NCBI GenBank assembly: GCA_030141605.1
Contig: JAQGDQ010000010.1
Span: forward strand, 931,501-995,500
DNA: 64,000 nt
Direction of reading: 5' to 3'
DNA from: Tubiluchus corallicola
Taxonomy: Eukaryota; Priapulida; Priapulimorpha; Priapulimorphida; Tubiluchidae
Part shown: in pieces, positions 38,178-44,100 of the stretch
How positions within the stretch are numbered: the first letter of the stretch is position 1
Layout: every line of letters starts with the position of its first letter
The notes under the pieces: model-generated
The model's input: only the letters and a program-made list of their open reading frames with translations
Databases searched by the model: none
What the model was told of the DNA's origin: nothing
Position numbers and translations under genes: made by a program

Positions 38178-41100
38178 CTACAATCAAATACATGCATAGA
38201 CATTTGACACAAGTCCTAGGCTGGCCTCTAAACCCATGCCTCCAAGGGCACATGGGCCTCTTGAACCTTTTTGCAGGTGACCTTTTTTCACATCATACCA
38301 AAAAAATTCGGAAAGTATTTATGTGTGTCACTTATGCTGGAAATTTCAATGCTGGAACTTAATAAGTGTTATTACAACTTAGCGTGTAGCAGTTTTAGAA
38401 CTATCTAAATCATTTTGAGCATAAAAGTCCCATGTGAGCTCTATGAACAAATGCAGACATGGCAATAAAAATTAAACAAAGTGATGCTTTACTTTTGTGT
38501 ATGCAAAGCAGGCTAGCATGGGGTATTTACGCTCAAAATGATTTCAATGAGATGATATTTCCTACGATATATAAATACAAAAAACATATCATATAAGAAG
38601 TAACATGTCTCGTCAAAAACAGCTGAATTCAATTCAGTTAGACATAGACAGAAAAAGGTCTCTGAAGTCCGTAGGTTTTTACTCCCCCAAGACTTTCTGG
38701 TTCACATGGCCCATTTACGACCCAGTTCGTACCATTACATGAGGTTTTTTGTTGGCACTCAAAATACAATGTCAGTAATTGTTTTGCTTCAGAAAGTGAA
38801 CTTGAATTCTCAAAAAGGTTGACTGGTGCTGAAGCTAATTTATTTTACTGCATACTTACATTGAAGTTTTTTTGTACAAATTTAGTAACGAGTGACACAT
38901 TTGTTTTAAATTGCAAGACATGCATTTACTTTTTTATCAATAAGGACACGACCTAATGAAAATGACATACAGTAAGTCCTCGCTTAACGACGCTAATGTG
39001 TTCCAGCAAAATGTGACGTTAAGCGAAACGTCATTAAATGAAACCAAGACTTCCATAGAAAGTAATGTAAAAGAATTGAGATATGTTAAAAAAGCAAAAA
39101 TGAATGCTACTTAAATCATATACATTAAATGTTTTATGAGTTTTATTCATATTTCTACTGGTTAATTTCTTTCTGTTTGCTTGAAACCACTTATCTGCCT
39201 TACCGGTATCTATCTGGACTTGCTAGCGGTCTCTTGAAGCCTGTATATAGACATTAAACAGTTACACACTGCATAGTGAAAGCTAAGCCCTGCATGAAGT
39301 GACCTTGAGACAATTTCAGGTAGTAGTAATCTGGTTGTTATAGCAACAAGTCGCAGACAAAAATTCCTTGGCATAAAGTTTAAACTCGGGTGCCTGAAGG
39401 CACATAAGTCAGCAAGTAGATCTCACTTGATACAAACGGCTAGAATTTAGTACGTAGACGGGAAGCAAAAGCATTATAGTAATTGTACTGTTTAGGTTAC
39501 TAATGCGGTTTAGGTTTTTAAAACAAAATAACGCAATTTGTACAGCTTTAATACTTCAAATTAGATAAAAAAAAGTGGCTGATAAAATAAAAAATGGCTG
39601 TGAGAAAAGTAAAAAAATCATCGTTAAAATGAAACGTGCGTCGTTAAGTGAGAAAAAGGTGTCAAATGTTGAGCGTCGTTAAAGCGAAACTTTTCTATAT
39701 AATTAAACATAGAATCACTATCGATTGAGTGAAGCTGCACATTTGTTCAAGTCCCATTAATTCTCGCTTTCTAGCTCGCTTAGCAGATAAGAGTCGACTT
39801 TTGAAAGTTATCACTCAAGAATTTTAGAATTTTCTCACAGGGCTCTGGTCACTTCAATCAGCTGATTTTAGTCATCCAGTAAATATCAATATCGTAAATG
39901 TCCTGCATTTGCTTGCCAACTTCTGACATCCAATAAAAGCGCAACTACATAACATTTGAACGTGAAGTGAGAAATGAGTACAAGAAGCAATAACTTTTAC
40001 GATTCGAATGCCAGTGCCACGTGTATCATGTCCTATTTCTGTTTGTTCAAGTGAAGTCTAGTGGAGGGACTCTAGTTGAGTGCTTGTCAGTTGGAATTGC
40101 ACATGTATTGCCACATAACACGTGTAGAAATGCCTATGGGTAAATGTTTGAAGTGATCAACTACGTTTTTAATACAACAGGTGCTATAAAGAAAGTCAAA
40201 GACAAAAAACTAAATGACACATACCTTGGGTTTCGGACGATGTGTGTTCACAGCTTCAACTGGGAATTTGATGGTAGTTTGTTTGCAACCGTAAGCACAC
40301 GGTGTCAGGGCAACGAGGGCATGAAGGGGCAATTCCAAGTATGGCAGGTCATCTGCAAGAAATTAAAAAAGTAAGATATCTACCTCCATATTATAACAAA
40401 GCATAAACTTACAGATGATACCATAACAAAACAAACTACATCAACGAATTTAAATTAAATAAAATCTTCAATAAAATTAAATAAAGCCCATTATAAAAAC
40501 TATGCATGATAAGCTGCTGTTGTCTGCTGACAAACTACAATTAATTTGTGATGACAAGAAACATCATTAAAACAGGTTCATCGTAATTCGGTTATTTTCA
40601 TTTAAAACAAAACTGTAAAAAAGCTGTAGACAGCATCGTATTTAAAGTATGATTAAATCATTCTAATACTTCCACATAACACATAGGCTTCCAAAAATGT
40701 TACAATACGAAAACTACTTAAAAGAAGGTAAAAAAGCATTGGTTCTTCTTTTTTTATAAAATTGACACATCATTATCTCTCGTTCCTTCCAAGCAAATAG
40801 ATCATTTTAGTTTCTTCACAATTTAAAACTTACATAACCAATAACTTTGAGGATATTTCTAGCTGAGGCATGCTAAACACTGTGCCAGGCAGATCTAAAC
40901 AAAACTGAACAATCAAAGAAAAAGTGCAGATATTATTGAACGTGCTATGAGACACCACACAAATCAGCTATTTAAATGTGACAAAATAAAGGTGCAATAT
41001 CTCGTAATAATCTAGTCTCATTATGATAATCTCAATTCAAAAGATGGCATGCAGAAAAATCATTGGTATAAAAAAATGTGTCAGACTTTTCAATAAGTAA

Positions 41101-44100
41101 AATGTAGGAACAGGAAAACGAAGAGTAGCAAACCAAGCAAGAAATATATCTCATAGAAGAGTTGTGCCAAATAGATCCCTTTTCTGAATTTACGCTAGCT
41201 CTATTTGGAAAGCTGGTTGAAAGTGGGCTAATATGGACAGAAGCTCTGGTCACAAATGAAAATGTCCACAAAACAGTTGGCGAAAAGGCCACATTTTAAC
41301 ATTCACAATATCACAGCATACACAGCGAGCAATACCTACGACTAACACACTCAAAGGAAATTGATAAATAAAAGTTTCCAATAAAAAACACACATGCAAG
41401 AACAGATGTTAGAGACGTTACTTGCAAAGGAAGAAATTCACAACAAATACAAAATTAATTGTCCAGTTTTTCTAATGGCAACAACAAAAATTTATGGCAG
41501 CAAAGAAAGGCAGCATGCCTAAGAATCTGTCTCACACGACAAACAAACTCCTGTCTTTCCCAACCTCCCGCCTCCCCTGTTCATGCACTCATGACAAAAC
41601 TTCACGCACTTGAGTAGGGAATAAGAACAGCATCTACAGCATATTGTGATCATCCCGGCGATCGATATCAAATTCTATTTCCTTCACTATGCAGCCAAAA
41701 GCCGTGGGTGTCAGTTGATACAAAGTGTGTAGCGAAGCACGAAGATACGGTGTATCGGCTACAATAGATATCAACAAGCACGTTATGATCCTGTATGATC
41801 GACATACAGTGTAGATGTCACTAGTTACCATGCTCCACAGAATGTTTTTTAATTTTTTAAACAACACAAATCACATGTCTTTATACCAAACCAGTTTTCA
41901 GAATTTACAATAATATGTGCCAGTCAATCCAATATAAATCTATAAAAATTGAACTCCCCACATGCCTTTGCTAACATTTTTCTAGGTATTTTTTGTCAGA
42001 TTTTTAAGCTACAAAAATAATAAAAACTGTATACATAAAATACCTAGTAAAAATAACTCATTAACATTAACTCCTTCACGACAATGATTATTTGGGTGCT
42101 TTTATCATCCTTAAATAAAACAGTCTAGCTGTATGAGATACTAGTGCAAACATATATATTTTCTGAAAGAGACTTAAATTTTCTTTCTAGCACTACTCGA
42201 AAAATTTGCAGAAATTTCACAGAGTTTTCATTCCAAGCGACAGCTGGTATCTACAACTGTTCAAGATAAAAAACTGTAGATCGTTTATGTCTGTGTAAAA
42301 TTTTGTAGAAAGTATTCAAATCACGTGAAGCTCGTACATTTGCCAGATGTTCAAATGAGCTAAGATAGTACGTAATTTGTATTGGAAATCAATGCTTGCT
42401 GCAGTCGAGTTTGCCCTGTGCTGGCTATTGAGCCGACAGCCGGTATTCCCAGCATGATCAGTAGCTGTATAGTAAAGTAGCGTGCATCTATATATCGAAT
42501 ATGAATTTGTTTACACACAACAGGTTTTTCAGCTTTTAGTAGCACATAGTAGCATTAATTCAGTATTATTCACAAGTAAAACATAAAAAAATTACTGCTA
42601 CTTCCTGTAAATGGGCAACTGATTGCTACCAAAGTTATAAATCCAGCTGTGAAATTGATCAAAATTTCAAAAAACACAAAAACGTTGCTCACTACAAGTG
42701 TGTTCAGAGTGCTGCTCACTGCCAGCACTTGCCGTCATTAGTCTGTGAAAACACACCAAGATGACAATAAAGACTGCTTTGGCTTTCTAATAATGGCCTG
42801 TACTAATACGTGCAGAGCAAATCAACATTCACTGTATAAGCGCAAAACAAATTTTTTATAAATTAGTTTGCGAAAAACTTCTTCAAAAACTAAAAATCAA
42901 TGAATACAACAACTCATTTTGTTCTAATAAAATTTACTTGTATATTTGCTATTTCTTTATGTGGAGAGTGGAAAGTTTAGTTAATAAGGAACTGTTTTAA
43001 CCCGTTACAGGTGACAGATAAAGGTATGTACCTGTCGGGAAGGAATACTGAATACCTACCTGAAAAATTATTCTCTTAATCGAATATTTTTAATAACAAT
43101 AATAAAAATAATGGTAATAAAGCGAAGTGAACATGCAATTTCTAGAAAACAGCAAAATTATAAACTTTAACACTTCAAAGCAAAAGCGCCAAAAATAAAC
43201 CATCAATAGCAAGTTCTGCCCCAACTAAACAGTAATAAAAATATAAATGTGCATCATATGTACCATAATTTTTGTCCAGAAAGTATGCTAGCAAACAACG
43301 TAGTACAGCTTGATGTCCAATCACTAAAATATTTTCCTGCCTTTCCAGTTCCTAAAAATAAGTGTCACTTAGTAAATATTTAACACATTAACATCAAATT
43401 GGATCAAAATGAAAAAAACTATTAGTAGCCACATACATTATATTATATTGTACTTTATATTTTCATTACATGACAGTATAAATACATGTAAATCTGCCTT
43501 GAGCTTATATACTTGCCATAATAACTGGTTCAAGTCTGGCTACTAAATCTTCATAGGATTCACCACCGGGATATCTGTACCGGAACTTGTTTTCATCACG
43601 CAAGTTAAATTCTACAGGGTATTTCTCTTGAATTTCTTTATAAGTCATCAGCTCGCAAATACCCTACAGAAGAAGAAAAACTCACAAATGTGATCTTAAA
43701 TGTCAAACACGAATTTTCAACAATGGCACGATTTAAGAAAACACATTGGCTTAGAATTGTGCCTATGCTGACTACATATTAAAAATGTAACACACAACCA
43801 GCTTTACTAACACGTGAATGATTATTTTCACCAATTTTTTGTTTTATAAGATGCAAAGACACTGTAATCAAGACAAAAAACTTTTTTTTAAATTAAGAGA
43901 GAGACTAGCACACTAGCAATATGCTGCAAATCATTTGCATTGGAACTGGAATGCTGTAAAACCTTGTCACTATAATGTGGCAAAGGCTATTAGATCAACT
44001 GAACCTGGTTGAAGTTTTCAAGAAATCTAGAAATAATCCAAGTCATCACTGAAGATGAATGCAGGCTGCATTCAAAGCATTTGGACAAGTTTTTTAACAT

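Follow-up and report, generated by a model that had tools for sequence, protein, structure and literature searches.

The bifunctional enzyme 6-phosphofructo-2-kinase/fructose-2,6-bisphosphatase (PFKFB) sets fructose-2,6-bisphosphate, a main switch of glycolysis. According to excerpts of published reviews, vertebrate PFKFB2, PFKFB3, and PFKFB4 have C-terminal splice variants (PMC4178209, PMC6131595). As these excerpts and that of a third report describe them, the PFKFB2 and PFKFB3 variants differ in a variable C-terminal region, and those of PFKFB4 either have stretches deleted from or inserted into the phosphatase region or vary in a C-terminal part, with a kinase core that is identical throughout (PMC4178209, PMC6131595, PMC8263283). 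The same excerpts place regulatory phosphorylation of vertebrate PFKFB2 and PFKFB3 in the C-terminal tail (PMC4178209) and link phosphatase autoinhibition in PFKFB3 to the N-terminus (PMC8263283). Among the matches listed for open-licence articles in PMC, no title or abstract beginning described a homologous pair of alternative exons for the phosphatase domain of a PFKFB gene. Gene annotations of other invertebrates may already list such isoforms.

Here we describe a PFKFB gene of the priapulid Tubiluchus corallicola in which the last shared exon is followed by two homologous candidate C-terminal exons, referred to below as A and B. Our main reading, to which we give a probability of about 0.7, is that the C-terminal exon of this gene has been duplicated, that both copies are coding, and that they are alternatively joined to exon 10.

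Structure of the PFKFB gene

The window, by which we mean the whole stretch of 64,000 bases that was analyzed, has a GC content of 34.4% and carries a PFKFB gene on the minus strand, between about 51.8 and 38.1 kb (Table 1). We found its exons by means of a PFKFB bait, which contained neither the N-terminal exons nor the last one, and joined them by splice context; the resulting model covers the P-loop exon onward. The kinase domain of the joined protein matches Pfam PF01591 (6PF2K) with an E value of 2.3e-87 over positions 14 to 223 of the 223-position profile, and the phosphatase domain, in the isoform that ends in exon A, matches PF00300 (His_Phos_1) with an E value of 2.8e-40 over positions 1 to 189 of 194. 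Both RHG and GHQAV, motifs with catalytic roles in the bisphosphatase domain, are present. Judged from its sequence, the gene is predicted to encode a bifunctional PFKFB.

Table 1. Exons of the PFKFB gene, in positions of the window
Feature	Position	Strand	Basis
PFKFB exon with kinase P-loop (GLPARGKT)	51705..51830	-	bait match, Pfam 6PF2K; 5' end 51830 placed by eye from the acceptor
PFKFB exon (VFNVGEYRR...MKIR)	51474..51570	-	bait and splice context
PFKFB exon	49057..49120	-	same stretch of the second PFKFB gene matches
PFKFB exon	48237..48371	-	bait and splice context
PFKFB exon (EVKADGPDY...)	45594..45783	-	bait and splice context
PFKFB exon	44940..45013	-	bait and splice context
PFKFB exon (HGES...NEIDA), bisphosphatase domain, RHG across the junction	44177..44395	-	bait, Pfam
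PFKFB exon (GICELMTY...VIM), followed by GC donor ATG/GCAAGT	43517..43663	-	splice context
Exon 10 (numbered as in the sequence-only reading), last shared exon, phase 1, weak donor ATG/GTACAT	43264..43351	-	bait and splice context
Exon A, candidate alternative C-terminal exon, own TAG stop	41634..41758	-	bait, tblastn, profile, solved PFKFB chains aligned to the C-terminal query
Exon B, ordinary C-terminal exon, retains VNTHRPKPK, strong acceptor	40225..40352	-	bait, profile
Last exon after B, coding part	38121..38177	-	acceptor and phase alone, no homology

Three other features were recorded in the course of the annotation. The intron that follows ...EPVIM (43517) opens with a GC donor, and the second PFKFB gene of this genome has no intron at that place. 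At 32649-32721 on the minus strand of the window there is an Rfam tRNA match of 40.4 bits, where ARAGORN reports none. An open stretch at 57039-57413 on the plus strand has Pfam matches below the cut-off to TNP-like_GBD (17.2 bits) and CPP1-like (18.9 bits).

A second PFKFB gene in the assembly

The assembly that we searched comprises 343.5 Mb in 2,344 contigs. A PF00300 search gave 12 matches listed at E values of 0.001 or below, two of which are the window gene and one of which, on contig C2218, is a second PFKFB gene, so that the genome holds at least two. The second gene (L010 1982 to L011 1110, about 462.5-471.1 kb of C2218) has an intact, stop-free core from the P-loop to a B-like exon and is 70% identical to isoform B of the window gene over 415 columns. 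The two genes share their domain order, the boundary and phase of exon 10, and the B-like C-terminal exon. They differ in that the exon 10 donor of the second gene, TACG/GTAAGC, is near consensus (by reading, unscored), and in that the B-like exon was the one C-terminal exon found, a search of the 38.5 kb surrounding the gene having given no A-like exon. Either exon A was gained by the window gene or it was lost by the second.

Elsewhere in the assembly, three stretches (L001, L002, and L015) of contig C1761, which is 873,888 bases long, have GC contents of 43-47% and are 94-100% covered by open frames of at least 100 codons; from their composition they look bacterial, whether a symbiont or a contaminant inside the assembly. 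L003, on contig C1997, resembles them (open-frame cover of 0.94).

Homology of the two C-terminal exons

Exon 10 ends in ...DKNY plus a single G, and the acceptors of A and B fall at the identical codon position, both in phase 1. Once the last base of exon 10 is prefixed, A is open up to its own stop codon; B is followed by the donor AAG/GTATGT, which leads to the last exon at 38177. The two exons align without gaps and are identical at 16 of 38 residues. With B as the query, tblastn against the window finds A at 37.0 bits (E value of 1.2e-7), and the best score per window was at most 26.6 bits in 200 Markov-resampled windows. A profile built without A, though including B and the C-terminal exon of the second PFKFB gene, was run against 5,679 open stretches of at least 12 codons from the window and L009-L012. 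It recovered A at an E value of 7.4e-11, third behind those two exons, and the next match below stood at 0.14. A chance resemblance is ruled out by the resampled windows and the profile E value. The sequence-only reading had proposed that exon 10 ends in phase 1 and is followed by two homologous, phase-matched exons, and this is confirmed by the shared codon boundary, the residue identity, and the profile match; the wider proposal, phase-matched alternative C-terminal exons within one PFKFB gene, has good support at the level of sequence. Human PFKFB2 is identical to B at 26 of 39 residues and to A at 16 of 39.

Apart from the C-terminal exon, no bait-covered exon has a duplicate in the window (the bait reaches neither the N-terminal exons nor the last one). 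Run on the window together with the 38.5 kb surrounding the second gene, the profile detected no third alternative exon. We also rejected a recent tandem copy, since the segments surrounding A (about 1.1 kb) and B (1.2 kb) have no significant DNA in common; the best match between them has an E value of 0.16 and lies on the opposite strand.

These comparisons also bear on the idea that A is no exon of the window gene and is instead the remnant of another PFKFB gene, either a tandem duplicate or an inserted copy. The presence of a second PFKFB gene in the genome lends the idea some substance, but the absence of any other doubled exon among those covered by the bait, and the position of A, which follows exon 10 and precedes B with the correct phase and codon boundary, argue against it. 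Nor does A show a special closeness to the exon of the second gene, with which it shares 15 of 38 residues, against 16 of 38 with B. We regard this origin as highly improbable.

Age of exon A and possible selection on its sequence

Codon positions 1, 2, and 3 match between A and B at 19, 22, and 8 of 38 sites (Fisher p of 0.0007, with sites taken as independent), with a dN of 0.72 and a saturated dS. The corresponding counts are 20, 26, and 15 of 38 for A and the second gene's exon (p of 0.027, a weaker signal) and 25, 29, and 10 for B and the second gene's exon (p of 6e-6). Because silent sites are saturated and amino acids have been held, A looks like an old exon retained as protein, and the duplication itself looks old. 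In a neutral simulation that allowed substitutions alone, B or the exon of the second gene served as the starting sequence and was let drift by 0.8 changes per site; an exon that was both open and identical at 16 or more of 38 residues resulted in a fraction of 0.0008 of 4,000 runs.

Columns invariant among B, the second gene's exon, and three vertebrate chains number 19, and A retains 11 of them. The distribution is uneven, with 10 kept of the 14 that fall within the first 25 columns, against 1 of the 5 within the last 13 residues, which indicates that the part encoding the end of the domain has been held and the VNTHR part lost. At several places where B differs, A agrees with its relatives: it has CxV, as do all three vertebrate chains and the exon of the second gene; it has an R that is also present in the second gene and in human PFKFB2; and its LHT recurs in the vertebrate chains. 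Exon A is thus no copy of present-day B. The exon-level phylogeny that had been suggested for dating the duplication did not settle the matter, since four placements of A were compared and none was rejected, on six sequences of 39 residues and with replicates too few for a reliable AU test. No relative of A turned up elsewhere among the sequences covered. In viral and prokaryote contigs, 0 of 19 and 0 of 47 pattern matches, respectively, were confirmed as relatives, a null result that says little because those collections contain few or no animal genomes.

Splice sites and polyadenylation signals

Splice sites were scored with metazoan tables. The exon 10 donor shared by the two exons is weak (2.37). 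Among the 268 AGs between 43250 and 38178, the acceptor of A is weak (3.37, rank 55) and that of B is strong (9.1, rank 4), which suggests that B is the default exon and A the alternative. Site weakness is not peculiar to A in this gene: the acceptor of the last exon scores 3.62, and the exon at 44177-44395 has both a weak acceptor (2.98, at 44395) and a weak donor (1.23, at 44177). We also considered whether A could be internal and splice onward to the last exon; the sole GT in 41631-41649 (GCTGTAGAT) scores -0.3, although a fair donor lies past the A stop, at 41610. Of nine hexamers scanned for between the stop of A and exon B, neither AATAAA nor ATTAAA was found, and the only occurrences were CATAAA at 41496, TATAAA at 40758, and AAGAAA at 40816. 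The most plausible candidate poly(A) site for A is CATAAA at 41496, which is followed by TTTTTGTTGTTG. We infer that A is in use, as a last exon that has a poly(A) site to itself.

The weak acceptor, the lack of a strong poly(A) signal, and the loss of the VNTHR motif would also be expected if A were a relic, a formerly used alternative exon that died recently and is still open by chance. Against this, A is open across 41 codons and gapless relative to B over 38. Under neutral substitution simulated from B, and with indels uncounted, the chance of staying open was 0.43 after 0.2 changes per site and fell to 0.24 after 0.4; a relic therefore fits only if its death was recent, and we consider it unlikely.

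Past the stop of A there are fair donors, the best being CAAGTGCGT at 41610, with a score of 7.0. Together with the stop codon itself, they are compatible with A being a regulatory stop exon, included before B or spliced onward from a donor in the 3' untranslated region, with the main effect that message decay lowers the output of the gene. A poison exon, however, requires no homologous phosphatase sequence, and of the 14 residues that are invariant in the family within the first 25 columns, A has 10. This role seems to us less probable still than that of a relic.

Predicted isoforms

Under the favored reading of two coding, alternatively joined copies, the C-terminal exon of an ancestral PFKFB gene would have been duplicated long ago and both copies retained as coding sequence. 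Exon 10 would then be spliced either to A, whose stop would end the protein, or directly to B, skipping A, and from there to the last exon. Either choice would finish the end of the phosphatase domain, and isoform A would carry a short acidic end in place of VNTHR and the tail. On the strength of the sequence comparisons, the pair is likely used as alternative C-termini. When the C-terminal stretch of isoform A was aligned to solved PFKFB chains, it extended as far as residue 188 of 1FBT, a bisphosphatase construct of 190 residues, and A can therefore probably complete the phosphatase fold.

Isoform A would be a tail-less enzyme, with an altered phosphatase/kinase balance or with regulation through the tail lost. 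The catalytic residues of the rat liver enzyme, which we take to be His258, Glu327, His392, and their neighbors, all lie upstream of the swapped exon, so that an effect on this balance can only be inferred. The tail of isoform B is itself short, at 18 residues after KPK; considered alongside the N-terminal autoinhibition of PFKFB3, this suggests that losing it may matter little. More tentatively, and at somewhat less than even odds in our estimation, the old exon duplication may have given rise to a regulated choice between tailed and tail-less phosphatases that tunes fructose-2,6-bisphosphate, with the second PFKFB gene keeping the ordinary end.

Comparison with known systems

The sequence-only reading had set vertebrates, which were said to vary this region through four genes, against a single gene that does so by exon choice. 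The exon pair within one gene stands; the contrast is too simple, because this genome has a second PFKFB gene and vertebrate PFKFBs splice their C-termini too. In vertebrate PFKFB2, PFKFB3, and PFKFB4, as outlined in the excerpts cited above, exon choice within one gene leads to different C-termini (PMC4178209, PMC6131595, PMC8263283), and the same is proposed here. Unlike the vertebrate variants as those excerpts describe them, the pair reported here consists of homologous exons, which encode alternative versions of the very end of the phosphatase domain.

Provided that both exons are used, they would supply a natural pair of phosphatases that differ only in the last strands and the tail, and hence a probe of the role of the C-terminus. 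One gene would then swap the end of a catalytic domain by its choice of exon, beside the gene duplication found in vertebrates and in this genome. A parallel is offered by the M1 and M2 forms of pyruvate kinase, which arise from homologous alternative exons that are internal. As in the PFKFB gene described here, the duplicate exons of PKM are diverged, are equal in phase, and belong to a gene for a glycolytic regulator; in contrast to PKM, one copy of the PFKFB pair has a stop codon and would be a last exon.
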